NCBI RefSeq assembly: GCF_030127145.1
Contig: NZ_CP126158.1
Location: 1,240,001 to 1,304,000 of the forward strand
Source of the DNA: Halobaculum halobium
GTDB taxonomy: Archaea; Halobacteriota; Halobacteria; Halobacteriales; Haloferacaceae
DNA: 64,000 nucleotides
Direction of reading: 5' to 3'
The position numbers were made by a program, and so were the translations under genes. Below are positions 34,403 through 50,792 of this stretch, piece by piece. The notes under the pieces are model-generated. The model was not told the DNA's origin. It made no database searches and saw nothing but the letters and a program-made list of their open reading frames with translations. The first letter of the stretch is position 1, and every line of letters begins with the position of its first letter.

Positions 34403-34512
34403 CTATATCCTCTGAATCTCGCCCATACTTCCTGTCGAGGCTGAGGATCTCAACAAAGCCAGAATTTTGCACATAGACCGGACTTTTACCGGTAATATCA
34501 TTATCCTAACAA

Positions 34513-34528
34513 CCAACTGATTAGTTGG
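34513..34528. promoter_or_regulatory. Inverted repeat before the recombinase operon
   Basis: CCAACT (34513-34518) pairs with AGTTGG (34523-34528) across GATT, ending 10 bases before the ATG at 34539. It corresponds in position to the CCATC/GATGG repeat at 33428-33443, with compensating changes. Either a translational hairpin or an operator. Confidence 0.5.
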
Positions 34529-34538
34529 CGATTCTGGT

Positions 34539-35048
34539 ATGACAGACGCATCTCTAGCCAGTTCTGACGACGAACAGAGCTACCAAACGCTCCACGAAAA
34601 CACAACGAGAGCCGAACTCTTCCCCGCCAAACAACACAAAGAAGAATGGTGGGAGGAGGCCGAACACGAGGGAGCCAGCCTCAGCGGCTACCTCTACGAA
34701 CTGATCCAAGAAGCCCGGATGTATCGGGATAGCGGCGCTCCATTCATCCAGACACAGGACCAGACGGTCAAGCAACTGCAAAACAAAATCGACGGCCTCC
34801 AAGCCCAACTCGAAAATGCCCGACAAGCTAGCGGTGGTCGAACCCACCTCAGTATCGATGACCTCGTTACGCGCGTTCTCGACCAACAGTACCAGTCACT
34901 AGACGAACTCACCGAGCGGATCACAGCCAGCGACGATGTCGCTCAACACCTCCAACGACAGATCGAGAACCGATTGTACGCTCTAGCCGAGAACGGCCGG
35001 GTTGAATTCCAGCGTGGGCACGGCTGGCGGCTCAAGGAGGCGAACTAA
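34539..35048 (+). CDS. Recombinase-linked protein with coiled coil
   Basis: A 169-residue protein. The N-terminal helix module (KQHKEEWWEEAEHEGASLSG) is followed by a coiled coil (about 75-100, QLQNKIDGLQAQLENARQ) and a winged-helix-like C-terminus (IENRLYALAENGRVEFQRGH). The gene ends 1 base before the recombinase ATG, so they form an operon. A regulator or accessory DNA-binding partner of the recombinase is likely. Confidence 0.65.
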   Translation: MTDASLASSDDEQSYQTLHENTTRAELFPAKQHKEEWWEEAEHEGASLSGYLYELIQEARMYRDSGAPFIQTQDQTVKQLQNKIDGLQAQLENARQASGGRTHLSIDDLVTRVLDQQYQSLDELTERITASDDVAQHLQRQIENRLYALAENGRVEFQRGHGWRLKEAN

Positions 35049-35049
35049 G

Positions 35050-35985
35050 ATGGGAGCCGAAGCCAATGCCTCGAAAATCTACGACAACAAACACGACGAG
35101 GTCACTTACTTCCTCACCCGGAAAGAGGCGACTGGGCGAAGCACGCGAACCCTCAACTCGTACAGTCGTATCCTCCGCGAGTTCTTCCACGACCAATTCC
35201 CTGACCTCGATCCCGGCGAGGTCGAAATACGCCACGTCGAAGACTACGTAATGGCGCTCACCGAACGCGGCGTCTCGCAGAACTCGAAAAAGAAGTACCT
35301 CGAAATTCTCTCCAGCTTCTACGGCTACACGATGAAGCGGCCACAGTTCGAGGACATCACGGGTAATCCCGCCGCAGTCGTAATGGAAGAAATTCCTCGC
35401 ATTCGTCCAGATCGACCGGACTGCGCGACGTGGGAGAACGCCTGCAAACTCATCAACGCGATTCCAGACCCGAGAGACAAAACCGTCGCCATCATCCTCG
35501 CTAAGACAGGAGCGCGTCTCCTCGAAGCTCTCTCAATCGAGAAGGACGACGTGGACCTCGAGAAGGGATTCATTCGACTCCGCGAGCGCAAGGGTGGCGG
35601 ACAGACCGTCGTCCCAATCGATGACGAGACGATCTACGCCATCAAACGCTACCAGTTCGTCAACTCCGACTCCGACTCTCCGTACCTATTCACGAGTACG
35701 CTCGGAGGACGACTCTCGAAAGAGCGGATTCGTCGGGAAGTGAAAGCCGCCGCCGACCGCGCCGGCGTCGCCCCCAAAGAAGAACGACGGTTCGAGAAGA
35801 AGTTCACTCCTCACACCTTCCGCACCGTGTTCACCACGCTAATGCGGAAGCAGGGAATGAAGCCGTACATTCTGAAATACATCCGTGGGGACGCCAAGAC
35901 CGAGACGATGGATATCTACACTCGCGTTGACCGAGACGAAGCGAAAGAAGAGTACCTGAACTGTATCAAGGAGATCGGGCTCTAG
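35050..35985 (+). CDS. Tyrosine recombinase (XerC/D-like integrase)
   Basis: A 311-residue site-specific recombinase. An N-terminal SAM-like core-binding domain (about 15-100) precedes the catalytic domain with Arg156 (TGARLLEA), Lys181 (RERKGGG), His255 and Arg258 (PHTFRTVF) and the nucleophile Tyr290 (DIYTRV). The usual second His/Trp site reads RGDAKTETM. This is the only integrase in the island and most likely the enzyme that moved it between the 34-base boundary repeats. Its gene follows the coiled-coil partner by 1 base. Confidence 0.9.
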   Translation: MGAEANASKIYDNKHDEVTYFLTRKEATGRSTRTLNSYSRILREFFHDQFPDLDPGEVEIRHVEDYVMALTERGVSQNSKKKYLEILSSFYGYTMKRPQFEDITGNPAAVVMEEIPRIRPDRPDCATWENACKLINAIPDPRDKTVAIILAKTGARLLEALSIEKDDVDLEKGFIRLRERKGGGQTVVPIDDETIYAIKRYQFVNSDSDSPYLFTSTLGGRLSKERIRREVKAAADRAGVAPKEERRFEKKFTPHTFRTVFTTLMRKQGMKPYILKYIRGDAKTETMDIYTRVDRDEAKEEYLNCIKEIGL

Positions 35986-35998
35986 CGAGGATGGACAG

Positions 35999-36313
35999 TT
36001 GGTCGAAGTCATAATCTATCGAAATCCGTTGGAGAACCCTGAGGAGGTAGCTCGCGTTTCCATTGAAGCAACCGTGGTTGGCGAGACGCCAACGGCTGAA
36101 TCTCTCCGGGGCCGGATTCAGGACGAACGTGATCCAATCATCAGCGAGTACACGGACGGACGGGAATTGCTGCGGTATCTGGCTGCCTCGTACTCGAATG
36201 GATATGTGATGGCTGGATACGATAGTGAAGAGTCCCGGCGAGTCGTTGAGGAGTTGAACGATGCCGAATACTTCAATTGGGCCGAAGAATCAGGGCTCGA
36301 CACCTCACTCTGA
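35999..36313 (+). CDS. Small acidic island protein
   Basis: A 104-residue protein from a TTG at 35999, with GAGG (35987-35990) 8 bases upstream as a ribosome-binding site. The start follows the recombinase stop closely. VEVIIYRNPLENPEEVARVS and SNGYVMAGYDSEESRRVVEE suggest a small alpha/beta fold. Family not recognised. The next 370 bases (36314-36683) show no gene I can support. Confidence 0.5.
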   Translation: MVEVIIYRNPLENPEEVARVSIEATVVGETPTAESLRGRIQDERDPIISEYTDGRELLRYLAASYSNGYVMAGYDSEESRRVVEELNDAEYFNWAEESGLDTSL

Positions 36314-36683
36314 TTCTCGAAGACTGTACGCTGGTAGTAGTCCCCCGACTGCTCACGCATTTCTGAGCGAATCGAATAGATTGACCCTCAGTCGTCCTCG
36401 AACGGCTCTCTACCCACGATAGGTAACATCCAGTCCGATACTGCTTGGGCTGTGGAGTCCCGAGGTTTTCTCTATCAATCGGCGGGTGTCCCCTGCTGTG
36501 CGTGATTGCTCCAGAGAACGGGTTGTTGACCTCATTGATTACTGATATTCGATTGATGGTGAACTCGTTCTCTGTTCTCTCAGCTTGGACCCCCACGCCG
36601 TTACAGACCAAGAGGAGCTGAATCACTCCGCTGCTCGGGAGTCTTATGATGAAACAGGATGATTATTGATACGGTGATTTGGC

Positions 36684-36893
36684 GTGGCATTGCTCATTTT
36701 CGGACTCAACGAAGAGAGAGACGGCTGGGATATTCTCGGGAGGATTGCGGACGGTGAGATAGTCGAGGACCCGACTGGCGAATTGGAGGCGACAATAGAA
36801 GGTGCGTATGATTTGGATGATGAAGACCATCTGAGGCGGGCATTGAACAACCACTACATCAACGCTGTTCCGCTGGCAGAGGACGAGGAGTAG
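36684..36893 (+). CDS. Small acidic protein, pair member 1
   Basis: A 69-residue protein from a GTG at 36684. It shares the pattern LGRIADGEIVEDPTGELE with the next protein (LGVIADGDVVDSIEEGFE), so the two are paralogues in tandem, 4 bases apart. Acidic, with no known motif; DNA mimicry or an antitoxin-like role is only a guess. Confidence 0.5.
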   Translation: MALLIFGLNEERDGWDILGRIADGEIVEDPTGELEATIEGAYDLDDEDHLRRALNNHYINAVPLAEDEE

Positions 36894-36897
36894 ATCG

Positions 36898-37113
36898 GTG
36901 CAGATTCTCTTTCAGATGTACCACGCCGGCGAGCTACACGATCTCGGTGTCATTGCCGACGGCGACGTGGTCGACAGCATCGAAGAGGGGTTTGAGGACT
37001 GGGTCCGATGGGAGTTGAGTCAGCCGACGACACCCAACATAGAGGATTCCAATGAGATCCTAGAGACCTACGAGGGACCGTACATCGTGACGAAAGTACT
37101 GGGATCAGAGTAG
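36898..37113 (+). CDS. Small acidic protein, pair member 2
   Basis: A 71-residue protein from a GTG at 36898, paralogous to the preceding one (IADGDVVDSIEEGFEDWV). It ends with YEGPYIVTKVLGSE. The close tandem arrangement suggests duplication. Function unknown. Confidence 0.5.
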   Translation: MQILFQMYHAGELHDLGVIADGDVVDSIEEGFEDWVRWELSQPTTPNIEDSNEILETYEGPYIVTKVLGSE

Positions 37114-37323
37114 TGACCTCTGGCTTAGCGAAGCTGGTTCCATTACCTAATAAAATATAAGACGGGGAATCGACAGAGACATCGCTCAAATAGATCCGTC
37201 AGGAGCGAAATGAGACACGGACGGGCGTGCTCCAAACAGTTTTAGAAAATTATTGCTGGGTGTACTAGACGGACCATCTGACGGCGACAGAACAGTTACA
37301 TACTCCACTCTCTTCAGCGGGTC

Positions 37324-37437
37324 GTGACCTACGACTACACCAAGATCAGCGTATATCCTGAGGATGGAGCGTCTTGGAGCGACTTGCTCCGTAGAGTAGC
37401 AAGCAAACTCAAGATCTATCCAGGGAGCCGGAACTGA
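37324..37437 (+). CDS. Possible 37-residue protein coupled to the winged-helix gene
   Basis: A GTG at 37324 opens a frame of 37 residues (TYDYTKISVYPEDGASWSDL, then a helix LLRRVASKLKIYPG). Its TGA overlaps the ATG of the following gene (TGATG at 37435-37439), a typical translational coupling. No family is recognised. Confidence 0.45.
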   Translation: MTYDYTKISVYPEDGASWSDLLRRVASKLKIYPGSRN

Positions 37438-38075
37438 TGACCGAGGGTACCGGAAAGGGAGATATAGATGATTTTGACGGACGAGTTCAGAAAGCACTCG
37501 AAGTTGGATTCGTAGCCGATTTGGTCCACTGGGCAAGGACCGGGGATGATACGAGCCTGACCTACATTGAGGACAGTTCTCGCTCTGGATTAGAGTACCA
37601 ATTAGCCCGACAAGGATGGTTTTGGGTCGGGGAAGGTGGTACTGAAGCTGTCGAAAAGTGGATGAACCAATTCGAACCTCCAAAGTGGACAGAGGAAGGG
37701 CCTGAATCAGAGTACCAGCGCCTCACACTAGAGAATAGTTATCAAAGGAAACGATACAACCCAATTCCAGAGAGTAGCGAGTACAGCATCTCTCAAGAGT
37801 CAATCCGGGATATAATGGATGTACTCATACAAGCGGAGAGAGTACGTAACGCGGAAATTAGGGAACAGACAGGCCTCTCAGAAAGTACAGTATATAGAGG
37901 GCTGAACTATCTAATTGACAAAGGCGTCGTTGTCCACGAAAAAGACAGCCGCTACAACTACTATCAGGATATCGGTGTCACGAGTATAGATAATACGGAC
38001 ATTGAAGCAGACCTCAACCCTGAAGAAGCACGATTAGAATGGTGCCGCCGCTATTATAATAATATAATAGAATGA
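37437..38075 (+). CDS. Winged-helix protein, putative regulator
   Basis: A 212-residue protein. The C-terminal part (about 125-175: ESIRDIMDVLIQAERVRNAE, then REQTGLSESTVYRGLNYLID) is a clear winged helix-turn-helix of the MarR/ArsR-like type, followed by VVHEKDSRYNYYQ as the wing. The N-terminal 100 residues are unrecognised. Very AT-rich at its 3' end. Likely a DNA-binding regulator of the island. Confidence 0.65.
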   Translation: MTEGTGKGDIDDFDGRVQKALEVGFVADLVHWARTGDDTSLTYIEDSSRSGLEYQLARQGWFWVGEGGTEAVEKWMNQFEPPKWTEEGPESEYQRLTLENSYQRKRYNPIPESSEYSISQESIRDIMDVLIQAERVRNAEIREQTGLSESTVYRGLNYLIDKGVVVHEKDSRYNYYQDIGVTSIDNTDIEADLNPEEARLEWCRRYYNNIIE

Positions 38076-38223
38076 AGCCTTGGTCCCCCAAGAGACATTG
38101 TAACCAAATACAGATGATATTAATTGACGTTAGTTAGCGTGAGTGATACGTAAGAAGGGATCTCTGATAGTGTTTGGACAGTCATTGATCCGACAACAGA
38201 AAGCGGATCCCGCTAGCCAGACA

Positions 38224-39291
38224 TCACGTATCAATTCCCTCGATAACGTGGCGGACAATAACTCCTGAATCCCGTTGGATGAAGGCTAGATCGTTCTCAG
38301 GAGCGGTTTGTAATTCGACAGCACCAGACATTCCTTCAACTACCGTCTCAAATGTAGGTCCGTACTCATTGCATAAGCTGGGACCCTCCACCTTAGCTGC
38401 GCCCAACCACCCCTCAGTAGTCGCTGCACCACTTACTACCTCCAACCAAAACTCGCCGTTCTTGATGATGATTGGATAGGTCTTCTGACCACCGACGAGT
38501 TCCCTCGCTTCAATTATTTTCTCCAGAACGCTCTGCGTGGTTCGGATTGTTGCTGACGCTGGTGCCGTTTTACTCCCTGTAGAAACGAGCAGTCTATTAC
38601 TGCGATCAAACTGGTCGTACAGCTCCGCGATCTCTTTTTCAGGATATTCAACTGAGAACTCGTTATCGTGGATCCACTCATAAACCTGCATCAGTGACAG
38701 ACGGCGCATCTCAGTCACAGGAAGGTCATACAGGCGATCCTCCACAGACCGCTCGCTATGGATCGTGCCTCTCTGAGATGTTGACATTGACCTGATCAAT
38801 TCTTCATGGAGAATTTCCGCCGTATCTCTACCATTATCTACGTCAGAAAGACAATCGGGGTCGATACCATGTGAGTTTGCAATCAACGCTGCCCGTCGTG
38901 GTCGAAATGCGGTCTGTGGAGTAGAGATTCCTACCGTTCGCTTGAGATCGTCTTTGATGTGAACCTCAGACGCAAAGTCGCTCTCTGGCTCACACATGAA
39001 ATCAAGATAGAGCAATTTCGACGTTGCCAGATTGAGATAGTCGTGCAACTCATCAACGTCAATGATAGCAAGCGTCGGGCTGTCGCTACGGAGTTCAATC
39101 GAGTGTAGATACTGGTCGGTGATCGTGCAGTACGTCGACACCTCTCCCGTCGGCTGCGTAATCGCTAATTCGTCATCTGTTATCCGAAGGAAAAGCTGGT
39201 CGTACTGGCGTTTCAGCGTAACCCTCGAAAGAAGACGATTGAACTGATGAAGAGACCCAGTTAGCGATGCAGCGATGATCGTAGATGACAT
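38224..39291 (-). CDS. Possible sliding-clamp-like protein, third gene of the GNAT/ParB operon
   Basis: A 355-residue protein. The N-terminal region (LLSRVTLKRQYDQLFLRITD, DELAITQPTGEVSTYCTITD, then LAIIDVDELHDYLNLATS) has the strand-helix pattern of a PCNA-type clamp half. The middle and C-terminal parts are unrecognised. The resemblance is by eye only. Its ATG overlaps the ParB-like gene stop by 1 base, so it is translationally coupled. Confidence 0.4.
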   Translation of the reverse strand: MSSTIIAASLTGSLHQFNRLLSRVTLKRQYDQLFLRITDDELAITQPTGEVSTYCTITDQYLHSIELRSDSPTLAIIDVDELHDYLNLATSKLLYLDFMCEPESDFASEVHIKDDLKRTVGISTPQTAFRPRRAALIANSHGIDPDCLSDVDNGRDTAEILHEELIRSMSTSQRGTIHSERSVEDRLYDLPVTEMRRLSLMQVYEWIHDNEFSVEYPEKEIAELYDQFDRSNRLLVSTGSKTAPASATIRTTQSVLEKIIEARELVGGQKTYPIIIKNGEFWLEVVSGAATTEGWLGAAKVEGPSLCNEYGPTFETVVEGMSGAVELQTAPENDLAFIQRDSGVIVRHVIEGIDT

Positions 39292-40397
39292 TAGTTCAAG
39301 TTCATCATCCTGAGCTGACTCTCGGAGAAGTCCCCCCGCTTCATGCTGATATCATCCTCACGGAGCCAGAAGCGAACTAATGACTCGGTGACTCCATAGC
39401 GGATAGCCAGTTCAAGCGGGGCGATGTCGCGCTCGTTGTACAATTCGTCGAGCAAGTCAGCATCAGGACGACGAGCAGCGATACTCCCGGCGACAGAATC
39501 GTCGTCTTCTGAGAGGTTTGCAAGCCCATTCCTCTCCATCAGGTAAACGAAGATTGGTGCCTCACCAGCTTTGACCGGCTCTCCTGAATGGTCATCATAT
39601 GCCTGACTAAGTTTCTGTAATCCTACGGTCCAGCTTTCCTCAGTAGTGATCTCGGGTTCGGTAACATCGTAGATCGTCTCTACAGTTCGTAGCTCATTCA
39701 GGAGATTCGCCTTCTCGATTGAATTCCAGGGAACCTCGTTGGTCGGTGAACTAGACTCGCGCTCGATTCTCTCTTTCAGGTCTGTCCAAGCACCATATAC
39801 GGACTTCTTGTCCCCGTCGAGATCCTTGACTAGCTCTTTGGCAAAGTCAGAGATGTCTGAGGAGTAGTTCTCCCCTCCCTCTGCAGCCTCCCAGACCTTC
39901 CGCGCATAGTAGAATTTCGAGCCAGACCACCCAATTCGATCTCCTACGAGTTCCCGAGTGGTCTTACCCTCTGCATCTGCTAGGTCTAGCTGAGGCGAAT
40001 TCTCAGACAGATCTGCAAAGTCGACCTTCTCGCTTTGCTCGATCCGCTTCTCCATCATCGGCGCAACCAGTTCCTTGTACTGGAGGGCGATCCGCATCTT
40101 CTGCGAAAACGTCTCCTCGCGGTCGTCATTGTGCCGTAGGATCGCCAACTGCTCCATCTCGGTGCTGCCATAGTCTCGCGTATCGACCGGGATCGAATCC
40201 CAATCAAGCGCCGTCGCAGCTTTCCATCGACGGACCCCGTCCAGAATCAACCCATCCTGGTTGACGATAATGGGATTTTCAAGCTCCTCATCGATGCTCT
40301 GAATGAACCGACTGCTTGGCTCATCTTGCTTGAATAGTTCCTCGCTGAAGGGGTGCGGTTCCAAATCCGAAACCATCATAGTAGCCCCATTTGACAT
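39291..40397 (-). CDS. ParB-like nuclease-domain protein
   Basis: A 368-residue protein. The N-terminal 100 residues form a ParB/Srx-type domain: SRFIQSIDEELENPIIVNQD, then LILDGVRRWKAATAL with the DGxxRWxA motif that binds or hydrolyses nucleotide in ParB-like enzymes. The rest is helical, with an HTH-like segment near the end (IAPLELAIRYGVTESLVRFW). In Dpd clusters a ParB-like protein (DpdB) assists DNA base exchange, so a link to the TGT genes at 42739-46565 is possible but not shown. Confidence 0.7.
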   Translation of the reverse strand: MSNGATMMVSDLEPHPFSEELFKQDEPSSRFIQSIDEELENPIIVNQDGLILDGVRRWKAATALDWDSIPVDTRDYGSTEMEQLAILRHNDDREETFSQKMRIALQYKELVAPMMEKRIEQSEKVDFADLSENSPQLDLADAEGKTTRELVGDRIGWSGSKFYYARKVWEAAEGGENYSSDISDFAKELVKDLDGDKKSVYGAWTDLKERIERESSSPTNEVPWNSIEKANLLNELRTVETIYDVTEPEITTEESWTVGLQKLSQAYDDHSGEPVKAGEAPIFVYLMERNGLANLSEDDDSVAGSIAARRPDADLLDELYNERDIAPLELAIRYGVTESLVRFWLREDDISMKRGDFSESQLRMMNLN

Positions 40398-40400
40398 ATT

Positions 40401-40910
40401 TCAGTCCTCCTGGAGCGTCTCGGGGATCGGTCGCTTCATCATGAGCATCTTCCGTCCGTTATCAGTGGTTCTTGACGAGTCTGGAGCGAATCCAATCGAG
40501 CGCCAATACGCTGACGCAGAGTCGTTTGCAGCAGCTTCTACCTTCATCGACCGCTTGCCGTGCTGAGAAGCGAACTTGATGGATTCAACAACTAATCGGG
40601 TTGCCAACCCCTGGCGACGGAAATCTGGATGCGTCGCAAGAAGCCGGATCTGCGCTTCGCCTTCATCCAGAATCCGAGATTCACACCAGACCATAACAGC
40701 CGAGACAACAATATCTCCCTCAGAGATGTAGAACAGCTGCCTCTCTGTCTGATCAACTGCTCTTTCTAGATTGTCTCGGTGCGTGAACGAATGAAGCTCA
40801 TTGCTGATCCGGTTGGAATTGAAGAGCCCCTGAACCTCGTCAATCTCCTCTTCTGTCGTAGCCGTAGCTATCTTGTCCGTAGTTTTGTTTCGCGTGTTGC
40901 TTGTTCTCAT
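40401..40910 (-). CDS. GNAT-family acetyltransferase
   Basis: A 169-residue GNAT protein with motif A IRLLATHPDFRRQGLATRLV (acetyl-CoA pyrophosphate loop, about 104-123) and the C-terminal ANDSASAYWRSIGF strand. It is the first of three tightly packed genes (GNAT, ParB-like, clamp-like). The ATG at 40910 is preferred to 41039, which would add a basic N-terminus reading through a structured leader. The substrate is unknown. Confidence 0.75.
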   Translation of the reverse strand: MRTSNTRNKTTDKIATATTEEEIDEVQGLFNSNRISNELHSFTHRDNLERAVDQTERQLFYISEGDIVVSAVMVWCESRILDEGEAQIRLLATHPDFRRQGLATRLVVESIKFASQHGKRSMKVEAAANDSASAYWRSIGFAPDSSRTTDNGRKMLMMKRPIPETLQED

Positions 40911-40945
40911 GGATCTCCCTCGTGAGCAATTCCCGGAGATGCCTC

Positions 40946-41040
40946 TACGGAGCCCGGCTCTCGGAAGCGCCAGAGCTCGCAGTCTGCGCTCCGTATTGCT
41001 CAGTTTGTTGGGTCGATTCGTAGCTCTCGACCCGTCCAAC
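40946..41040 (-). promoter_or_regulatory. Structured 5' leader of the GNAT/ParB operon
   Basis: Between the divergent promoter and the GNAT start, the DNA can fold into two strong elements. TACGGAGC (40946-40953) pairs with GCTCCGTA (40988-40995), enclosing GCTCT/AGAGC (40957-40961 with 40972-40976). GGGTCGA (41010-41016) pairs with TCGACCC (41027-41033), extendable by GTTG/CAAC. An AT-rich TTATACTTATT (minus strand, about 41060-41070) could be the promoter. This could be a regulatory leader RNA, or a small RNA. Confidence 0.45.
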
Positions 41041-41150
41041 TCTATGGTTGCGCGTGTAATAAGTATAACGACGTAATAGAATATGAAACGGTATGGGCGA
41101 AAATACGCAATTCCAATAGCTTCATTAGAATCACCGTAATAAAATAGCGT

Positions 41151-41696
41151 ATGTCATCTGATTGCGAGAGAGAACGTGGTATCCTCAGCACCAAAGACCG
41201 CAACTACCTAAGGAGCGGTGCTGGAATCGCACCGAAAAGCTCCGCAGAACGAGTTGCCCGATCCCGGATCCGAAAGCGCCTCCACAGCGCCTATCTGGAT
41301 TTCAGACTTCTCGTCGACGAATTAGAAGAACGCGACCGGAGAAGCGTGTTCGAGAATCTGCCCGATGATCGAGACCTCCACCGGGGAATCATCGCTGCGC
41401 TCGAATTCACATATCTCGCTCTGAAAGAACAGAACCTCGATTTCAAAGACTACCTGGAGGAGGCGGTCACAAACGCGGAGGAGAAGCTAGCTCGAAAAGA
41501 ATCTGAAAACCGCGTCGAGGTAGATGTAGAATTCAACGTCGAAACGAGACTCGTCCTCGATGAAACGCGAGATATCAGTGAGTACAGCGACCAAGAGATT
41601 GGTGAATTACTGATGAACGGCGAGATTGATGGTGAACTTGCAGCAAGGCTCTTGGAACAGAATCACAGCGACGGAGGCAGCAGAGATATCGCCTAA
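41151..41696 (+). CDS. Haloarchaeal helical protein of unknown function
   Basis: A 181-residue protein. GILSTKDRNYLRSGAGIAPK and RSRIRKRLHSAYLDFRLLVD are a signature I recall from many haloarchaeal plasmid and island proteins (GILSPADREYLR type), whose function is unknown. Largely helical and charged. The ATG at 41151 follows an AT-rich promoter (TAATAAAATA, 41131-41140). Confidence 0.65.
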   Translation: MSSDCERERGILSTKDRNYLRSGAGIAPKSSAERVARSRIRKRLHSAYLDFRLLVDELEERDRRSVFENLPDDRDLHRGIIAALEFTYLALKEQNLDFKDYLEEAVTNAEEKLARKESENRVEVDVEFNVETRLVLDETRDISEYSDQEIGELLMNGEIDGELAARLLEQNHSDGGSRDIA

Positions 41697-41871
41697 TCAC
41701 CGCTGAACTCGAGGTCAGTACTTCTGGTGAAAATTTACCGTAGGTTTTCATCCGCCACCTTCTCACGTAGTCCTCAAAAACACTCGATAGAATTGATTCA
41801 GGCAAATAGAATCACAGTCTCTCCACCGAACATAGGGACCTCCGTACAGTCTTCGACTCCCTTAGCCTGAA

Positions 41872-42138
41872 TCAGTCCTCAGACTCTCCCTCCTCGTAGC
41901 CAGCTTTGTGCTCATCTCGTACTGTTCTCGAAGCTCGCCTTGAGACCTTAGCGAGATTCTTGTTGAATCGACGGATAGAGAGATAGATGTACAGCAGGAG
42001 GAGATACGGCCAGATGAGCAACCCAACGACAGAATAGATAGCGAGTTTGAGGAACCGGTACTCTATCGGGCCGATATGGACGCTACCTATCTGGATGCCA
42101 CGCGACTCGTCTTCCTGGTCGCTGTCTGAATCAGTCAT
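41872..42138 (-). CDS. Single-span membrane protein
   Basis: An 88-residue protein with one strong hydrophobic segment (LAIYSVVGLLIWPYLLLLYI, about 32-51) between an acidic N-terminus and a basic then acidic C-terminus. A perfect 20-base palindrome lies 22 bases upstream of the ATG. Function unknown. Confidence 0.6.
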   Translation of the reverse strand: MTDSDSDQEDESRGIQIGSVHIGPIEYRFLKLAIYSVVGLLIWPYLLLLYIYLSIRRFNKNLAKVSRRASRTVRDEHKAGYEEGESED

Positions 42139-42160
42139 TGTAATCTCCGGCCAACGCCGT

Positions 42161-42180
42161 CGCTGCTAGACCTAGCAGCG
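42161..42180. promoter_or_regulatory. Perfect palindrome upstream of the membrane protein gene
   Basis: CGCTGCTAG (42161-42169) and CTAGCAGCG (42172-42180) are exact inverted copies separated by AC. The site ends the region 22-42 bases upstream of the ATG at 42138. It is a good candidate operator. Confidence 0.5.
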
Positions 42181-42425
42181 CCAGTAGGACCTATTCAGAG
42201 CGACGCCGGGAAAGAATATCAAATTACTTACTTAATATCCAGAATCCGGCCTCTGGATGTCCCCGGAAGAACAGTACTCAGCGTACAGTCTCCCGCCTGC
42301 TGACCGAGTCCACCGCTCAGAGGATGACTGGCATTCAGACTCGCGAGCGATGCGTTAGCGTCTGAGCCCTGTTACGCCCCATGCCATCCGAGAGAAGTAG
42401 AGGTGATGGCGAAGCGAGCAACTCG

Positions 42426-42688
42426 CTACAATAATTCAGAGATCGTCTCGGTCAAGTCCGCTAGGATATCTTCGGCTACCTCCAAACTCCGTCAACCCGT
42501 GATAACCACCTTGCCCGTAGCGAAGAGTGGGATAACGATATCCACGTCTTCTGGTCATTGAATGAGCCTTGGGAACTGCTCAGGCACCTACTTGGTCTTT
42601 CAGGACCTAACCCAATAGCGAGAGCGCTCAGATTGAGGTTTTGTCCCAATTCAGCCGGACAGACATTCCGGAGATTAGAGCGTATTTC
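42426..42688 (-). pseudogene. Decayed TATA-box-binding protein (TBP) gene, C-terminal repeat
   Basis: On the minus strand, broken frames spell the second TBP repeat: ELGQNLNLSALAIGLG, then in another frame VPEQFPRLIQ, a stop, PEDVDIVIPLFATGKVVITG, another stop, and RSLEVAEDILADLTETISEL. Intact haloarchaeal TBPs have LGQxLNLNAIAIGLG, YEPEQFPGLVYRL, LLFGSGKLVITG and a final helix in the same order. At least one frameshift and two stops are present, and the first repeat is missing. Extra TBP copies are common in haloarchaeal plasmids; this one is dead. Confidence 0.75.
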
Positions 42689-42738
42689 GGGACCGTAGAA
42701 TTAGGGGTTTGCTACGCTACAGACTGTCGAGGTCGCAA

Positions 42739-44727
42739 CTACGCCTCGGGTGTTTCTTCTGAGGACAGGACAGCCCGGATGCTAACAGCCAGCTCATCCA
42801 GGTTTGAGTTTCGGAAGTGTTCCGTAACTCGACGAACTGCTGGATCAGACGGTAACATTGTCCCGACTCCTGCTTGATCGAACGCCTCCTCGATCGTAGT
42901 TCTGTATGTCTTCGTCGTCACATACGCGAAGACAGCTCTGTATTGATCTTTGTGTGCTTCGAGGAATTCGACGAGGCGGTTTTGTACGCGATTGACTTGG
43001 TCGGTGTCCGCATCCGTCAGGAAGTAGTCATACGACAGCACTGCGTCGTGGGTTTCGAACTCTTGTGGAACGGGCCCGTATAATCCAGAGACAGAGACTT
43101 TTTCTACCTCATTCCAGAGGCCAGCTTCGCTGAGACGATTGGCGACTTCTAAGTGGGTCTTCGAATCACTGTACGGCTTCGTGTCGCTACAAGAGACTAT
43201 CAGACAGACAGGCTTCTCTGACGAGGGCTCAAATTGTTCGCGTCGAATATCGAAGTCATCGGGAGTGTGTTCGAGCGAGGTCTTTTGAGATGACTCGACG
43301 GCTAGTGATCCATCATCGTTGAACACGGTCTGTCGTAGCTCAGCGCCGTTAGAAGGAGCGTTTTCCGCAATGTCGAATCCTTCTGGAACCACCGAACGAA
43401 GTTCGGGCCATCTGCTCGCAGCGCGAGCGAGTCCGGCACCAAGATCCGCGTTTTGTCTAGCACGCTCTGTAAGGAGCGTATGCAGCGACCCGTCCATGAT
43501 GGCGTCTCGGACTTCGTTCACCTCCCGCTGGAACACGTGGAAGTTGTGATGTGCTATCAGCGCATAGAAATCGCTCTTCATGTATGACCGCGTCTCGCCG
43601 TCTCGCTTGATCTCAACCGGCTTGTATGAACGATCTGCCGCGAAGACCTCCTTCATATCGGCGACGCCTACGTCAGTCAATTCTTCGCATGCAGGGCAAT
43701 CACAGTTCCACTCGTCGGCTGTGAGTTCCGTCGCGTTAGTTTTCTTTCCGTCTTTGGGGTTGATGAAGTCCTGATGCTGTGCTGCCTGTACGTACGTGGA
43801 CGAGTCATAGCTGTCTACCCCGAGAGCAGCGATGAGAGGGGCTAATTGCCCTCCAATACCGAAGACGTGCAAAGCGAATTCGTCACGTCGGTTCGGCGGG
43901 ATCGCCATCGTAGCTCCCTGAACGATATCAACGAGCATTTCGATCTTTCCAGACCGTAGTGGGACAAGCGAGCCAACTGCGAACCCATCGAGTGAATCCT
44001 CGTAGTTAGTCCGCTCAAGCAGTTTTGAGACGTAGTATCCGACCTCGTCATGGCTGTGCCCATGGAGCGCGGCGTAAACCGTTGGATCCCAGTCTGCGTA
44101 CTTCTCATCTTCTTCTAAGAGCCTGAGACATTCGACGGCGCTGTCGATGCTCTTCTCAACCCGCTCATATTTTTCATCATCGGCGAGTCCAGGTGGGATC
44201 GGATAGTCAAGCGTGGCAAGCATGTCCGCTCCATAGTCGTACTGTAAATCAAGGATAGACCGAGGGTTAGTGTAGATTCCCCAGTCATTCTCTTCTCCCC
44301 CTTCCTCGGGATGTTCTCCGAACGTTCGGGAGTTCATGAGTTTGAACCCTCCCGAGTCGACGAACAGCGGTTTCTCGAACGCTGGTGGTTTTGGGTTGTC
44401 TTTTGGAGATTCGTGGTCGGTGAACCACTCGTGAAGGCCGCTCGCCTCAGTTCGCCATGTTTCGACGTGGTGTGGGCTGAGATTGAAATCCAGGAAGCTC
44501 ATCGCTTGGAACATCGCGCCCTGGAACTCGTCGTCGCCGAACAATCGGTTTCGGAGTCGGCTCCAGATGCCACCAGAAACGGGCGTCGGCCCGCCCATGA
44601 GGTTGAGGACTGGAAAGAACGCCGGAGTATCGACAGCACCGCCTAGGGGGGCCTCAGGGGTATACAGCCTACCGGTTCTGGCAGCTCCGACATCTGACTT
44701 CTGGAGCGATTCGAAACCACGTGTCAT
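42739..44727 (-). CDS. TGT-like base-exchange enzyme fused to DUF5591 (DpdA/ArcS-like)
   Basis: A 662-residue protein. Residues 1-420 are a tRNA-guanine-transglycosylase-like barrel: FVDSGGFKL (Asp124, general base), LGVDSYDSSTY (Asp308, nucleophile position) and a zinc site CDCPAC (342, 344, 347) with His393. The C-terminal part (about 500-620, LIVSCSDTKPYSDS ... VSGLYGPVPQEFE) matches DUF5591, the domain of archaeosine synthase ArcS. No PUA domain is seen. It would swap guanine for a 7-deazaguanine and perhaps convert its nitrile, in DNA (as DpdA) or RNA. The ATG at 44727 fits a TATA at about 44756-44762. Confidence 0.75.
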   Translation of the reverse strand: MTRGFESLQKSDVGAARTGRLYTPEAPLGGAVDTPAFFPVLNLMGGPTPVSGGIWSRLRNRLFGDDEFQGAMFQAMSFLDFNLSPHHVETWRTEASGLHEWFTDHESPKDNPKPPAFEKPLFVDSGGFKLMNSRTFGEHPEEGGEENDWGIYTNPRSILDLQYDYGADMLATLDYPIPPGLADDEKYERVEKSIDSAVECLRLLEEDEKYADWDPTVYAALHGHSHDEVGYYVSKLLERTNYEDSLDGFAVGSLVPLRSGKIEMLVDIVQGATMAIPPNRRDEFALHVFGIGGQLAPLIAALGVDSYDSSTYVQAAQHQDFINPKDGKKTNATELTADEWNCDCPACEELTDVGVADMKEVFAADRSYKPVEIKRDGETRSYMKSDFYALIAHHNFHVFQREVNEVRDAIMDGSLHTLLTERARQNADLGAGLARAASRWPELRSVVPEGFDIAENAPSNGAELRQTVFNDDGSLAVESSQKTSLEHTPDDFDIRREQFEPSSEKPVCLIVSCSDTKPYSDSKTHLEVANRLSEAGLWNEVEKVSVSGLYGPVPQEFETHDAVLSYDYFLTDADTDQVNRVQNRLVEFLEAHKDQYRAVFAYVTTKTYRTTIEEAFDQAGVGTMLPSDPAVRRVTEHFRNSNLDELAVSIRAVLSSEETPEA

Positions 44728-44749
44728 TGGACATCCCATCGTACTCGGG

Positions 44750-44886
44750 TACAGGGTTAAACTTGACCAGTGACAGCCACAATATTGGAATATTGATATA
44801 ATAGACCTCGATCAGGTCAGCGGTTGTAGAGCAGGACTGTCTCTATCCACGCAACGCTTTTGTCTTGGAGGATCGACGGAAGCGTA
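44750..44886. promoter_or_regulatory. Divergent promoter region of the TGT module
   Basis: The region holds GTTTAAC (44756-44762, minus strand), about 30 bases before the TGT gene start at 44727. An AATATTGGAATATTG repeat with ATATAATAG lies nearby (44782-44806). GGAGG (about 44867-44871) precedes the plus-strand ATG at 44887 and could be its ribosome-binding site. One divergent region probably controls both arms of the module. Confidence 0.45.
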
Positions 44887-45351
44887 ATGACCGAGTTGCT
44901 GATCCAGGGTTGTTCGCAACGCAAAAACGACCCCAATAAGCCGGTTCCACCGGAGCAGCTCTACGACGGGTACTTCTTCAGAATCTTAGAGGCAAACCGA
45001 TCAGAATCTGGGAGGAACATAGAAGTCGTAGTTCTCTCTGCGAAACACGGTTTCGTTACTCAGGAAGACCGGATCACAAAGTACGATACACAAATGACTC
45101 AGAACCGTGCCACTGAACTTAATTCAGATATAGTTCAATCGTTTAATGAGTACGTTCGTGATTCTGATTTTTCCGACGTGTGGGTGAACGTCGGTCAGCC
45201 GTATCTCAGGGCGCTCGATGGTATCGAGTCAGGTATTCAAGCAGAATTCCACTACCTACAGGGTAGGCTGGGTGAACGTGGACATCATCTCAAACGTCTC
45301 TTACAGGGAGACCACGAGACCGTCAAAGACGAACTCTCCCACATAGATTGA
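44887..45351 (+). CDS. DUF6884-like protein
   Basis: A 154-residue protein. LLIQGCSQRKNDPNKPVPPE with Cys9, then VVVLSAKHGFVTQEDRITKY, is the pattern (CSxxK ... LSAKYG) of DUF6884 and of the related ArcS/YaaA-like DUF5591 group. It may process a 7-deazaguanine base or bind nucleic acid. The ATG at 44887 follows GGAGG. Its TGA overlaps the ATG of the next TGT gene (TGATG at 45349-45353), so they are coupled. Confidence 0.65.
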   Translation: MTELLIQGCSQRKNDPNKPVPPEQLYDGYFFRILEANRSESGRNIEVVVLSAKHGFVTQEDRITKYDTQMTQNRATELNSDIVQSFNEYVRDSDFSDVWVNVGQPYLRALDGIESGIQAEFHYLQGRLGERGHHLKRLLQGDHETVKDELSHID

Positions 45352-46565
45352 TGACCAGTTTCGAAACATCCGCGCGAGTTGGTGACGCAAGAAGTGGAAA
45401 ACTCCACTGCCGAGACACAGTAGTAGAGACACCACACTTGTTTCCAGTAATAAATTTCTACTGTGGGGGACTCGCGCGTACTCACTTTGGCGGAGGTGTA
45501 TTTCGAACAGTCAAAGAATTCCTCTCAAACGAAGTTCCTGCGGCCAACGGAACAGATTATAGCGAATATTTCAGAGGTGTCATGACATCAGTTGCATCAC
45601 TGACTGATTTCGGATTGAGTAGAGAGCGATACCTCTCGTACCTCGAGACACCAGTCAAGTCCCGTCCGGAGTTCGCCGAATTCGATGGGGCGCTGTTCGT
45701 CGATTCGGGAGGCTACAAACTACTAAATGAGGGGTCGCTTAGTGGTACAAATTTTTCAATCGAGACGAGCCAGAAACTCATCCATGGGATACAACGAGCA
45801 TTTGGCGCGGACATCGCTGTCAATCTCGACCTGCCGTTCGAGGAAAGTGATGTGTATCGTGACCGCGTCAGCAAAACCGAAGCCACGGCTTCCTTCGCAG
45901 CCGAATTCGTGAACATGGATGCTGAAGGGTCAAGGCGCTACTTGACCGTTCATGGGTACTCAAAGGCGATGCTCGACCGGTTCTTTGACACAGTAGCACG
46001 GACACTCCCTGGGCCTATCGATCAGTTTTATGATGGAATCGCATTCGGTGGCTTAGTCCCGAAAAAAGACGATTTGAATGGGCTGATTAACGCCGTGTCT
46101 AGCTTAAAAACGGTTCTCGCAGAACGGAATCTGTCACATCTACCGATCCACGTTTTAGGAATCTCGGGACGTGCGATGCCGTTATTGATTGCCCTGGGCG
46201 TGGACACATTCGATTCCTCGACGTACCTCCATTCTGCGATCAACGGGAAGTACAGTACATCTCTATTTACTAGCACGAACGTGGCGGAAGCTGATTTCGA
46301 TATCTGTGACTGCCCAGTATGTACTTCTCCTGCACTCCGTCAACAAATGCGAGGTGACGCGGAGTACCAGAAGGACATCTTGGGTCCAGTTGCAGTACAC
46401 AATCTAATACTTCAACAACAATTTGTCAAACGGCTCCGCCGCTCAATAGCTGAAGGGAACCGTGAACAGCTACGAACGTTTCTTGAAAACGCGTACCAGG
46501 ACCGCCCGCAAAGTAGGAAGTTCGCGTATCGCGTGATCAACCAGACGCTGGGGTCGTACTTCTGA
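45351..46565 (+). CDS. Second TGT-like base-exchange enzyme (DpdA-like)
   Basis: A 404-residue protein with the same TGT-like core as the 42739 gene but without DUF5591. It has FVDSGGYKL (Asp118), LGVDTFDSSTY (Asp288), a zinc site CDCPVC (319, 321, 324) and His350. The two differ enough to suggest separate roles or a heterodimer, as in eukaryotic TGT. The DUF6884-like gene just upstream may supply the missing domain in trans. I use the ATG at 45351 rather than the TTG at 45348. Its stop overlaps the GHKL ATPase start. Confidence 0.75.
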   Translation: MTSFETSARVGDARSGKLHCRDTVVETPHLFPVINFYCGGLARTHFGGGVFRTVKEFLSNEVPAANGTDYSEYFRGVMTSVASLTDFGLSRERYLSYLETPVKSRPEFAEFDGALFVDSGGYKLLNEGSLSGTNFSIETSQKLIHGIQRAFGADIAVNLDLPFEESDVYRDRVSKTEATASFAAEFVNMDAEGSRRYLTVHGYSKAMLDRFFDTVARTLPGPIDQFYDGIAFGGLVPKKDDLNGLINAVSSLKTVLAERNLSHLPIHVLGISGRAMPLLIALGVDTFDSSTYLHSAINGKYSTSLFTSTNVAEADFDICDCPVCTSPALRQQMRGDAEYQKDILGPVAVHNLILQQQFVKRLRRSIAEGNREQLRTFLENAYQDRPQSRKFAYRVINQTLGSYF

Positions 46566-48103
46566 TGAGCGAACAACTCGAATACAGAAAACCGTCGGTC
46601 AACGAGGTGAACGAGTTTCTGGAGATCGCGAGCGATTTTCAGGACCCACTGGAACTGATCCGTGAAGCCTTATCTAACTCGTATGATGCAAAAGCCAGTC
46701 GTGTCACGATCGAAATTGACCAACGCTTCGACGGTCGAACGAGGATCCGGATCCAAGACGATGGGAACGGAATGGATGAGGAAGGACTAACGTCTTTTTT
46801 TGATCTCGGAAACTCAACTAAGGAAGACAGTATCGGATACAAAGGTCATGGAACGAAAATCTACTACAAGAGTGATCTAGTTGAGGTAGACACGGCAAAG
46901 GATGGAGTCGGCTATCGTGCCGTTATGGAAGATCCGTGGGAGAAACTCAACAGTCATGAACTCCCAGAGTACTCGCTGTATAGCGGAACAGGGGTCGACG
47001 AGACGTATACAAACATCGAGATTGTCGGGTTCCGGTCCGGTGAGGGATTTAGTGCTGGGAAGTTAACATACAACAGAATCAACCACTATATCAACTGGAA
47101 AACGATCGGTGGGTCGCTCGCACATCGGCTTGCTGCAGACCCACACGAGATGGAGATCAGAGTAGAGTTGGATGACGTGTTCGACGACACCAGAAACGAG
47201 TTGGTCCAGCAGTCCCGGTTCGAATTCCCTCAAGAGCGAACAGATCTTCAGAGGCTCGACGACATTGAATCCGCTTGTAAGCACTACCCATACCGTCAGC
47301 GGACAGTCGAAGTCAACGGAAGAGAAGTTACGTACGATATTGTAGGCTTTGTCGCTGGGAAAGAAGCTCGAGAAGAGCTCCCGACGTACGGGCGACACTC
47401 AACGCAATTCGGCATCTGGCTTGCCAAGGACCACATCAAAGTCGAGCGTGTCCCTAGTGTGGTTGGGTCAGATCACGAGACGCCGCGATTCTTTTTTGTC
47501 GCCAACTGCCAAGAACTGGAATTATCTGCGAACCGTGAAACAGTCCGAAACAAGTCGAGTGCACTGTTCGACGCCCTCGTATCAGATCTAAAGCGGTTCC
47601 TCGATCGAGTTGTTGAGGACCCATGGTACCGGGAATACTTAGCTCAGCGCAAAACCGTCGAGATTGAGGAGTCCGCAGATGAGGCCGCAGGGTCGATCCA
47701 AGATAGAATTGAGCGCGCCCGATATGCAAACACAGTCTCTGTGTCCAACTCCCACGAACTGATCGCACGGTGTACGGAGTATGCATCATCGGGCGGATCC
47801 TTCGGTCAAATTGTGGATTTCGACTCCACGGAGGACATTGAGGCAATCGTGGAAAAAGGAGGAGAGTATCGGGCAGTCGCGCTAACACCTTCGCTACACG
47901 ACCTCTTCGTGGCGGAGCGTGCGGTTCGAGAAGCCGACCAGATCATTTGCTGGGAGTACGGTGACTTGGATATACTCCGACAGATCGAGGTTGACGGATA
48001 TCTCGGCAGAGATATTCAGTTCGTCCTGTCGGCAGAAGAGCCGTACTGCGAACTTGATGGTGAGAGAATACCGGTCCTAGAGTTACAGCAATGTTTCTCG
48101 TAA
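46565..48103 (+). CDS. GHKL ATPase (Hsp90/MutL/MORC-like)
   Basis: A 512-residue protein. ELIREALSNSYDAKA is the N-box (Asn38, Asp41), DDGNGMD the G1 box (65-71) and GYKGHGTK the G2 box (91-98), so an ATP-binding Bergerat fold is complete. The domain after it (about 200-330) resembles the transducer domain of GyrB/MutL-type proteins. No histidine-kinase phosphoacceptor is seen. ATP-driven dimer clamping on DNA, as in MORC or MutL, is the natural model. The gene is coupled to the TGT gene by TGATG. Confidence 0.8.
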   Translation: MSEQLEYRKPSVNEVNEFLEIASDFQDPLELIREALSNSYDAKASRVTIEIDQRFDGRTRIRIQDDGNGMDEEGLTSFFDLGNSTKEDSIGYKGHGTKIYYKSDLVEVDTAKDGVGYRAVMEDPWEKLNSHELPEYSLYSGTGVDETYTNIEIVGFRSGEGFSAGKLTYNRINHYINWKTIGGSLAHRLAADPHEMEIRVELDDVFDDTRNELVQQSRFEFPQERTDLQRLDDIESACKHYPYRQRTVEVNGREVTYDIVGFVAGKEAREELPTYGRHSTQFGIWLAKDHIKVERVPSVVGSDHETPRFFFVANCQELELSANRETVRNKSSALFDALVSDLKRFLDRVVEDPWYREYLAQRKTVEIEESADEAAGSIQDRIERARYANTVSVSNSHELIARCTEYASSGGSFGQIVDFDSTEDIEAIVEKGGEYRAVALTPSLHDLFVAERAVREADQIICWEYGDLDILRQIEVDGYLGRDIQFVLSAEEPYCELDGERIPVLELQQCFS

Positions 48104-48184
48104 CATCGTCACAACTTCGGCGGGAGAGATTTGGGCGTCGTGTAACACGAGTGTTTATGTAGATTCCATCGCGGGATAATTGCA

Positions 48185-50674
48185 ATGTCCGAAGAGAACG
48201 ACGTTCCGCTCTGCGCTAAGCGTGTATTCCTATATCCGGGGGATCCGGATGGAACTGGCATCATCAAATACGACGCTGATGATTATATCGGTGGATACTC
48301 AGAAATCGATTTTGTTGACAGCACTCAGTTCATCCGCTCGCTTGAGGAGGATATCACGCTGAGGAACAGATCGCTACTACAAGTCACTGACGGGGCTAGA
48401 TTCGAGGTCCCCGAGTACCAGCGCAATTACAGCTGGACAGAAGATCAACATGAAGAACTGTGGGAAACGGTCCGTGAAATCCTATCGCTGCAATCAACGT
48501 CGGGACAGAAACCGTCAGACACGTACTTCGGAACGGTATACGTAGCTAAGTCTCCGAAGCAGGACAATGTTGAGGTTATTGACGGACAGCAGAGACTCTC
48601 GACTTTCGCAATCCTCCTCCATAACCTCGGAAAGAAACTTGACGAGAAGATTCCAGAAGTTTCTGGCGAACTCAGCTCCTACGCAGAACACGTCCGAGAT
48701 ATCTATATTGATGAGCTTCTCTACCGGCAACAGGGTCCGAAAGAGGTACCATTCCTCCAACTCAACGATCACGACAATGCGTTCTTTGAGGCTCTATTCA
48801 GCGAAGACGAGGACGTGGTAAAGTCCGTAGTAGAGAAGATGGATCAATATGACGGCCGGAAGACGAACGCCATCCAGCTGAAAGAACTTCTTGAAGAGTT
48901 TGAAGTCGATGAGGAAGTATACAGCGAAGTTGGATTGGACACCGACAACGGTGTTCTAGATTCGTTCCGTTACTACGCCGAATCGCATCAGAAACTCGTA
49001 GCCGCAGACGATTTTTACGGCGAGAAGATCGAACAGTTCCTCAACCACAAACGGTTCGAGACGGAAGAACACGAAGTCCGTGCTTTGGTCAATATGACCC
49101 ACTTCGTCTTGAGGTCGCTTCGCGTTTCCGAGTGTCTGTTCGAGACCAACGATCAAGAACTCCGGATCGAAGTGTTCCAGTCACTCAACGACCGTGGAGT
49201 GGAGTTAACGAAGATGGACAAAGTCCGAGCGCGTATCGTGGGGCGATTCCAAGGGGAATCCGATCAAGACAAGCAGATCGGTCGATGGGATTCCGTCGTA
49301 CAGGAGTTCGGTGGAAACGCTGACGATGTCGAGGAGTTCCTTGCACACTATTTCGCGGCCACAGAAAAGGAGTTCGAGACGGTCACTGATGCGAAGAATG
49401 AGTTGCTTGAGGCGTTCCGACTGAAGAATATCAGCCGAACGAGTATCAAATCGCGCCTCGCAAATCCGGGAGATGCGCGGGACTTCCTCGAGGAGTTACA
49501 GGAGTATGCAGTACGGTATCGTGAGATAACCAACGCAGATCTCGTGGACGATGACAAGCAGTTGAATCAGGACTACCGTGAGGAATGTGAGTCAATCCTG
49601 CGCCGACTGAATGGCCTCGGAACCAGTCAGTGGCGGCCGTTCGTTATGTACGTATATCAAAAGGTCACTGAGACTCCAGGACAAAACGAATTCCTCCGGG
49701 ATATTCTGAAGACAGTAGAGAATATCACGTTCCGTGTGGCGATTTCTCCGCACGTCGCGACCGTCGTTGACAGCACGTATCCGAAGTCGACCCAGAAATT
49801 CATCGAATTGGAGCGGTCCGGTAGTGAATTCGATGTGGAGAAAATCTCCAGAGAACTCATCGACAATATCGACAGTGGTGCTCGCCAGGTATTCGGAGAG
49901 GACTTTGCAGACAGCCTCATTTCCGAGAGTAACTGGCAGAATAACCAGACGAAGCAGTTGTTCTTGAAACTCGCAGACGAGTATTATCGTCGCGAGAACC
50001 GAACGGGGATTACGAAGACGGGGATCTCTGACGCCACAGATGAAGTTCATATCGAGCATATTCTCCCACTGAACTTCTTCCAGAAGTACAAGCAGAACCC
50101 GTATGCGTGGCCTGAGTTCTTTTTTAGTGGTGAAAGAGACAAGCCTTTGGAAGGTCGTATTGACCTTCTCCGTAGACACAAAGCTGCTGAGATAGACTCC
50201 GACTCAGACGGATCTGAAGTTGTAGAGCGGGTCGTTTCCTCCATTCAGGAGAACTTCGTCCGAGACCTGGGCAATATGATGCTCTTGGACTCCAAGCTGA
50301 ACCAGTCAATCAAGAATCGGCTGTTTTCGGTGAAACTCCGAGAATATCACAGCGAGCACGCCAAAGACCTCACCAATGTCGTCAACGAATTCTTCTCTGA
50401 GGGAGGAGCGATTGATGGGAGGTCGCTGAATGAGTTGTCTCGGATCGACTTGCCGGATGATGAGACGGACCCCGACGCAGCTAAGATAGTTACAGAGTTC
50501 AACAAATGGTGGAACTACGAGCGTGCTGTCGATCGTAAGGCCGAACTGATCACTGAGATCATAGATTCACTAAGCTTCAGCGTGATCGACGATGAGTTCG
50601 AGACGATCAGACCAAACGTCGAAGAGTTGGTCAGAGAGGACTACAATACGCGATTCATGTTGATGAGCGCGTAG
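48185..50674 (+). CDS. DUF262/DUF1524 nuclease (GmrSD-like)
   Basis: An 829-residue protein. The N-terminal DUF262 domain shows FEVPEYQRNYSWTEDQ and VEVIDGQQRLSTFAIL (DGQQR 133-137), a ParB-like NTPase motif. The C-terminal DUF1524 HNH region has VHIEHILPLNF (His622, Glu624, His625) and NMMLLDSKLNQSIKNR. The same two domains make the type IV restriction enzyme GmrSD, which cuts modified phage DNA. The gene starts 82 bases after the ATPase gene, with its own TATA-like GTTTATG (48152-48158), about 30 bases upstream. It probably is the effector of the module. Confidence 0.88.
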   Translation: MSEENDVPLCAKRVFLYPGDPDGTGIIKYDADDYIGGYSEIDFVDSTQFIRSLEEDITLRNRSLLQVTDGARFEVPEYQRNYSWTEDQHEELWETVREILSLQSTSGQKPSDTYFGTVYVAKSPKQDNVEVIDGQQRLSTFAILLHNLGKKLDEKIPEVSGELSSYAEHVRDIYIDELLYRQQGPKEVPFLQLNDHDNAFFEALFSEDEDVVKSVVEKMDQYDGRKTNAIQLKELLEEFEVDEEVYSEVGLDTDNGVLDSFRYYAESHQKLVAADDFYGEKIEQFLNHKRFETEEHEVRALVNMTHFVLRSLRVSECLFETNDQELRIEVFQSLNDRGVELTKMDKVRARIVGRFQGESDQDKQIGRWDSVVQEFGGNADDVEEFLAHYFAATEKEFETVTDAKNELLEAFRLKNISRTSIKSRLANPGDARDFLEELQEYAVRYREITNADLVDDDKQLNQDYREECESILRRLNGLGTSQWRPFVMYVYQKVTETPGQNEFLRDILKTVENITFRVAISPHVATVVDSTYPKSTQKFIELERSGSEFDVEKISRELIDNIDSGARQVFGEDFADSLISESNWQNNQTKQLFLKLADEYYRRENRTGITKTGISDATDEVHIEHILPLNFFQKYKQNPYAWPEFFFSGERDKPLEGRIDLLRRHKAAEIDSDSDGSEVVERVVSSIQENFVRDLGNMMLLDSKLNQSIKNRLFSVKLREYHSEHAKDLTNVVNEFFSEGGAIDGRSLNELSRIDLPDDETDPDAAKIVTEFNKWWNYERAVDRKAELITEIIDSLSFSVIDDEFETIRPNVEELVREDYNTRFMLMSA

Positions 50675-50792
50675 CTGAGTTGTAATACGGAGATTTTTGA
50701 CTCTGTTGAAATTCGTCTGATCTGACCTTGAGGCGATAGATTTCATTAGTCGATTTTGCTATCTTTTTAAATCACCGCGATAAACGGTCGAG

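Follow-up and report, generated by a model that had tools for sequence, protein, structure and literature searches.

A TGT barrel and an ArcS-type DUF5591 domain are encoded by a single open reading frame (ORF) in the window analysed here, a stretch of 64,000 nucleotides from the haloarchaeon Halobaculum halobium (contig NZ_CP126158.1, positions 1,240,001 to 1,304,000). This fusion, called TGT5591 below, is genuine, and we consider it likely that it forms, with its neighbours, the modification arm of a mobile Dpd-like restriction-modification island that is based on 7-deazaguanine in DNA and contains two transglycosylase/base-finishing pairs (Table 1). TGT enzymes exchange guanine for preQ0. 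In cells, 7-deazaguanine in DNA is known from the Dpd islands of bacteria; for Archaea, measurements come from a virus, and the involvement of a host DpdA has been no more than a proposal (PMC6884629). The locus makes a host system accessible to testing in about 10% of the haloarchaeal species sampled. It links a GmrSD nuclease genetically to presumed writers of 7-deazaguanine, and its single-chain enzyme could make base insertion and finishing one assay. The fusion also has a bacterial branch, in organisms not known to have archaeosine in their tRNA. The fusion seems to be undescribed in the literature searched: a full-text search for DUF5591 returned no match, and an earlier mention in the Dpd literature (Iyer 2013; Thiaville 2016; Yuan 2018; Cui 2023; Gedara 2023) is possible.

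Table 1. Coordinates of the system and of its surroundings in the window, and of the split version in related loci
Feature	Position	Strand	Remarks
Low-GC mobile island holding the system	28500..50700	.	~50% GC vs 65-75% outside
Tyrosine-integrase-like ORF	35002-35985		in island
TGT-DUF5591 fusion (TGT5591)	42739..44727	-	ORF 42739-44739, ATG 44727 preferred
DUF5591 domain (residues 501-627)	42859..43239	-	C517-S-x-x-K521-PYSxSxxH and SGxYGPVPxE
TGT barrel (residues 20-430)	43450..44682	-	D128-SGG, D178, GSLVPL, D309/D312; Zn ligands C346, C348, C351, H398
Divergent intergenic region, fusion gene / plus-strand operon	44728..44886	.	
DUF6884 protein	44887..45351	+	DpdC/YaaA/AF0587-like fold (predicted); CSxxK and SAxxG motifs
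Second TGT (TGT2)	45348..46565	+	catalytic and zinc residues all present
GHKL (MutL/Hsp90-like) ATPase	46565..48103	+	N, G1 and G2 motifs intact
GmrSD-type nuclease	48185..50674	+	DUF262 DGQQR and HNH; candidate restriction effector
310-aa TGT-like protein and second DUF6884	L165:7940-9330 (also L166-L169)		in place of the missing fusion

The fusion protein and its active sites

The minus-strand ORF 42739-44739 comprises 666 amino acids and ends at a stop at 42739, and the plus strand of 42739-44727 is interrupted by stops throughout. The true start is probably the in-frame ATG at 44727 (MTRGFES), which is favoured by the family alignment. A Pfam search recovered TGT (residues 20-430, E 5e-25) and DUF5591 (residues 501-627, E 5e-15), and detected neither PUA nor TGT_C2. 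These matches do not occur by chance, since 36 haloarchaeal relatives align with the protein over its whole length; it also aligns in a set of 43 archaeal and bacterial rows.

Residue conservation was scored across 72 fusions, 41 from haloarchaea and 31 from bacteria. Apart from the truncation of two bacterial rows at the first two positions, the aspartate of DSGG, D178 and D312 are retained, and D309 is variable in six bacterial rows. H398 is kept as well, as are the zinc cysteines in all rows but one or two, including one archaeal fusion in which they are absent; minor positions vary in some bacterial rows. In DUF5591, Cys517, Lys521 and PYS are present in 72/72 fusions and GPVP in all but one, and no residue of this domain was reported as proven catalytic in the literature surveyed. 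Similarly, the whole transglycosylase residue set is retained in 34/34 TGT2 sequences. The initial annotation, which had described a TGT barrel joined to an ArcS-type DUF5591 domain, devoid of PUA and with complete catalytic and zinc residues, is thus confirmed on all of these points.

The structure of the full chain, whose prediction the same annotation had proposed, was modelled with AlphaFold from 43 alignment rows (mean pLDDT 86.6, pTM 0.84). The barrel is predicted to be arcTGT-like (1iq8, Z 35.4, 2.7 A over 346 residues) and the C-terminus to form a confident separate alpha/beta domain behind a low-confidence linker (464-484). Since a sequence comparison also pairs this domain with 2q07/AF0587, whose structure is solved (E 3e-10), its fold is presumably of the AF0587 type.

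The barrel of TGT5591 is that of the TGT superfamily and includes the nucleophile, the general acid and the zinc site. With arcTGT it shares the fold of the barrel, the nucleophile and the zinc site, whereas it differs by large insertions, another C-terminal domain, a separate branch in the tree and a defence context. With ArcS it shares a TGT-type N-terminus, linker helices and a DUF5591 domain bearing the CSxxKPYSxSxxH and GxVPQE motifs. On the contrary, the full transglycosylase site that it keeps is lost in ArcS, and the TGT_C2 and PUA domains of ArcS are missing from it; indeed, the ArcS of H. halobium itself conserves the DUF5591 motif and has a partly lost barrel signature (DSGG, GS). 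The fusion scores below the NCBIfam equivalog thresholds of both ArcS (NF040592, 99.6 bits for 440 required) and arcTGT (TIGR00432, 101 bits for 350 required).

The island and its conserved neighbourhood

Beside the fusion, the plus strand carries the overlapping genes of the DUF6884 protein, TGT2 and the GHKL ATPase, followed by that of the nuclease, which matches GmrSD_N (DUF262, 8e-29) and GmrSD_C (HNH, 4e-10). Scanning the intergenic region for promoter consensus sequences gave nothing usable. Three further candidates were rejected as parts of the system because they do not recur next to the fusion elsewhere: a ParB-like ORF (39291-40397, minus strand) and a pair of adjoining ORFs (30641-33270, minus strand), both in the island, and a GNAT ORF. 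The pair has no PADLOC match, and its 463-aa product contains a D...DAKY stretch, possibly a nuclease motif.

TGT5591 was identified in 38 of 391 Halobacteria genomes (1 of 11 in its own genus) and TGT2 in 42 of 391; both co-occur in 37, against 4 expected when shared ancestry is ignored, the sole fusion genome without TGT2 being G237. In the 40 related loci whose neighbourhoods were compared, TGT2 and the ATPase are each present in 34 and DUF6884 in 32, the DUF6884-TGT2-ATPase operon being found in 32-34/40. The preQ0 genes QueD-QueE-(FolE)-QueC accompany 14/40 loci (QueC and QueE 14, QueD 12, FolE 5), often directly divergent from the TGT5591 gene. At least one restriction-type neighbour (DpdJ-like, DpdK-like PLD, DruE/BrxH-like or GmrSD) occurs in 36/40 loci, with a DpdJ-like helicase (E 2e-54) in 14, a c4 helicase bearing a STAND ATPase module in about 20 and a DpdK-like PLD in 6. 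A row of gene clusters, c14-c20-c21-c23-c25/c32, in which c20 is weakly RAMP-like and c25 an HNH protein, adjoins the fusion in six to nine haloarchaeal loci (L052:2614-8327, L069, L075, L087, L093).

The DUF6884 protein yielded a predicted model (pLDDT 90) whose best structural matches are AF0587 (Z 10.2) and YaaA (Z 9.9), the next row reaching 6.6. By sequence, it matches DpdC at E 1e-4. The hhalign comparison of the fusion family with the DUF6884 family is, taken alone, weak (probability 48, E 2e-4). Because the C-terminus of the fusion matches AF0587 by sequence and the DUF6884 model matches it by structure, DUF5591, DUF6884 and YaaA appear tied to one fold, mainly through the structural match of DUF6884 to AF0587 and YaaA. 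The authors of Pfam relate DUF6884 to YaaA and noted CxxxK and LSAxxG motifs (PMC11701544), both present in the window protein, and DUF6884 is reported to be the domain of DpdC in Dpd islands (PMC11888242). This protein type had already been flagged as a defence candidate, as the PADLOC candidate PDC-M57A matches DUF6884 proteins (44887-45351 in the window, E 3e-7; L165:8881-9330, E 1e-31).

In five TGT2 genomes devoid of the fusion, the operon DUF6884-TGT2-ATPase-GmrSD begins with two additional genes, for a protein of 310 aa and for a second DUF6884. Pfam and PADLOC gave no match for the 310-aa family, which is probably a divergent TGT according to hhalign with TGT2 over the active-site stretches (probability 88, E 3e-6). 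We read the 310-aa protein and its DUF6884 as a split equivalent of the fusion, each locus thereby having two transglycosylases and two nitrile-type domains. That the DUF6884 protein is the matching partner of TGT2, as suggested in the initial annotation, which had also placed both genes correctly, is well supported by the operon shared in 32/40 loci, the AF0587/YaaA fold and this split version in five genomes.

The genome of H. halobium carries a canonical arcTGT and ArcS as well as QueC/QueD. No DpdJ homologue and no full-length c4-helicase homologue were found in this genome, and preQ0, DpdJ-like and DruE-like genes are absent from the island of the window, so that GmrSD is left as the only effector candidate here. 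The lack of DpdJ and of a full-length c4 homologue would also suit a locus that protects DNA without restricting, either as an orphan mark, as anti-restriction cargo or as a system losing its nuclease arm. Poribacterial fusions, whose neighbours are metabolic genes and include no evident partner for restriction, and the use of such marks by phages as protection (PMC6884629) agree with such a role, which we nevertheless consider unlikely, because a GmrSD gene follows the ATPase gene in the window and, at the same place and with 61% identity over the full length, in five other genomes, and because no full-length relative of the fusion was found in 50,697 phage records or in a pattern scan of 2.9 million viral contigs.

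Known systems, substrate and proposed mechanism

The locus would work like a Dpd system, yet several features set it apart from this class. Like the bacterial Dpd islands (dpdA-K, dADG/dPreQ0), it combines a presumed TGT writer with a putative YaaA/DUF6884-type base converter, and its relatives have preQ0 genes nearby and, in some cases, DpdJ-like and DpdK-like genes. It differs by its two TGTs, one of them fused to DUF5591, by the GHKL ATPase and by GmrSD as the likely effector. Moreover, TGT2 reaches 23.5 bits with the DpdA equivalog NF041059 (cut-off 200 bits), for which the fusion is not among the matches listed; the genes scanned in the window and in the conserved neighbourhood gave no match to DpdB (ParB/DndB-like ATPase), and those scanned in the window none to the restriction genes DpdD-K either.

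BREX-related capture (BRC) systems with TGT and GNAT (PMC12839542) resemble the locus in that a TGT lies beside defence ATPases and a 7-deazaguanine self-mark is proposed, whereas none of HerA/FtsK, PglZ, DUF6079 and DUF4007 was detected among the window genes or the conserved clusters annotated. A different TGT, of 344 aa, lies beside a BREX-type ATP-binding protein, preQ0-synthesis genes and a 970-aa protein on other haloarchaeal plasmids (L189:1-9076, L193:344-8836), which perhaps carry a distinct, BRC-like TGT defence cluster. The window nuclease has the DUF262 DGQQR and HNH motifs of the GmrSD family (SspE, BrxU, GrwAB), but is here encoded with presumed writers of the mark.

The absence of PUA had been taken in the initial annotation as a hint at a non-tRNA substrate. 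This argument was dropped, as Pfam assigns DUF5591, TGT_C2 and PUA to the ArcS of the same genome and TGT only to its canonical arcTGT; the missing domain cannot separate DNA from tRNA enzymes, and ArcS acts even on a nucleoside (PMC11298593). The HVTV-1 virus, whose DpdA had been suggested for comparison, encodes no DpdA of its own (PMC6884629). The proposed two-step reaction on a non-tRNA substrate is plausible on other grounds: a complete TGT site joined to an ArcS-type domain makes insertion of preQ0 followed by conversion of the nitrile the natural reading, and the mobile island, the restriction neighbours, the patchy distribution and the presence in bacteria favour a non-tRNA substrate. 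The separate arcTGT and ArcS of this genome point the same way, and the fusion is borne on a 50%-GC island with an integrase. Judging from this context, the substrate of TGT5591 is most likely DNA, although genomic linkage does not fix it.

Some observations would also suit an arcTGT/ArcS paralogue that acts on tRNA or another RNA, for instance a particular RNA in stress or infection. The closest solved folds are those of tRNA enzymes, a missing PUA does not preclude action on tRNA (as the arcTGT of this genome and, by its title, a work cited in PMC11298593 indicate), and six cyanobacterial fusion loci have DUF262 and HEPN genes downstream, HEPN being a fold common among RNases. We nonetheless deem such an RNA enzyme quite improbable, considering that canonical arcTGT and ArcS are already present, that the fusion is scattered on islands and plasmids beside DNA restriction-type helicases and GmrSD, and that TGT5591 and TGT2 branch apart from arcTGT, ArcS and Tgt, with moderate support (93/90) and long branches.

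In the mechanism that we infer, the TGT5591 barrel would replace guanine in DNA by preQ0 (7-cyano-7-deazaguanine), supplied by the FolE/QueD/QueE/QueC pathway of the cell, and the Cys/Lys pair of DUF5591 would then add a nucleophile to the nitrile, yielding an archaeosine-like, amino-acid-adduct or amide base that would serve as the self-mark in antiviral restriction. In Archaea, archaeosine is completed by RaSEA, a step that bacteria are not expected to have, which speaks against archaeosine as the product there. TGT2 and the DUF6884 protein would constitute a second writer, and the GHKL ATPase would join the modification arm, where it might, as a guess, replace DpdB. The nuclease arm restricting unmarked DNA would most likely be GmrSD in this genome, possibly sparing the finished self mark, and DpdJ/DpdK-like proteins and DruE/BrxH-like helicases with a STAND ATPase in relatives. 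A GmrSD effector fits with GrwAB, a GmrSD-like pair that senses 7-deazaguanine in phage DNA and needs it to act (PMC12137116).

An alternative scheme is that preQ0 is inserted in DNA and left as plain dPreQ0, DUF5591 doing no more than binding DNA or flipping the base, a function proposed for YaaA. Descriptions of YaaA and DUF6884 proteins give them a cleft of positive charge and DNA-binding ability (PMC11701544), and phages with DpdA only carry dPreQ0 (PMC6884629). This scheme seems rather doubtful to us, as Cys517, Lys521 and PYS, invariant among the relatives, are common to ArcS, which attaches lysine to preQ0 in RNA and acts even on the bare preQ0 nucleoside (PMC11298593), and as DpdC, which has a related domain, hydrates dPreQ0 to dADG, according to a statement in PMC12839542. 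Under the preferred scheme, in which the nitrile is converted, we tentatively propose, as possible rather than probable, that in an archaeal and bacterial restriction-modification family the parallel pairs TGT-DUF5591 and TGT2 with DUF6884 each write a finished 7-deazaguanine mark of their own, or divide the marking by strand or motif, and that GmrSD reads the result, the first pair being a single chain that inserts preQ0 into DNA and converts it to an archaeosine-type base.

Bacterial relatives and other mobile elements

Genome and viral contigs searched with the single fusion protein gave no hit, whereas an alignment query retrieved full-length fusions from Cyanobacteria, Poribacteria and Chloroflexota, and from single Deinococcales, Kuenenia, Thermodesulfovibrio and Thermococcaceae bins. 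In the tree, those bacterial fusions that were included group together, next to the archaeal ones. No TGT2, DUF6884 or ATPase was found near bacterial fusions, which can therefore probably work independently of all three. A DpdJ-like helicase adjoins four of them (L134, L135, L150 and L155), the last also having QueD/E/C-like genes nearby; these helicases and the cyanobacterial DUF262 and HEPN neighbours also count in favour of the restriction-modification reading.

In viruses, weak matches to the DUF5591 stretch (E about 4e-3) were seen in the Sulfolobus spindle viruses STSV1 and STSV2 and in Synechococcus phages (hits H31-H37). A Haladaptatus plasmid harbors two diverged copies of the fusion that face each other (L005:14001-15965 and 16679-18700). 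Finally, two cyanobacterial plasmids (L190:602-9119 and L191:784-9113) encode an annotated DpdA and a second TGT of ~310 aa between two helicases, a further recurrence of two transglycosylases per locus.
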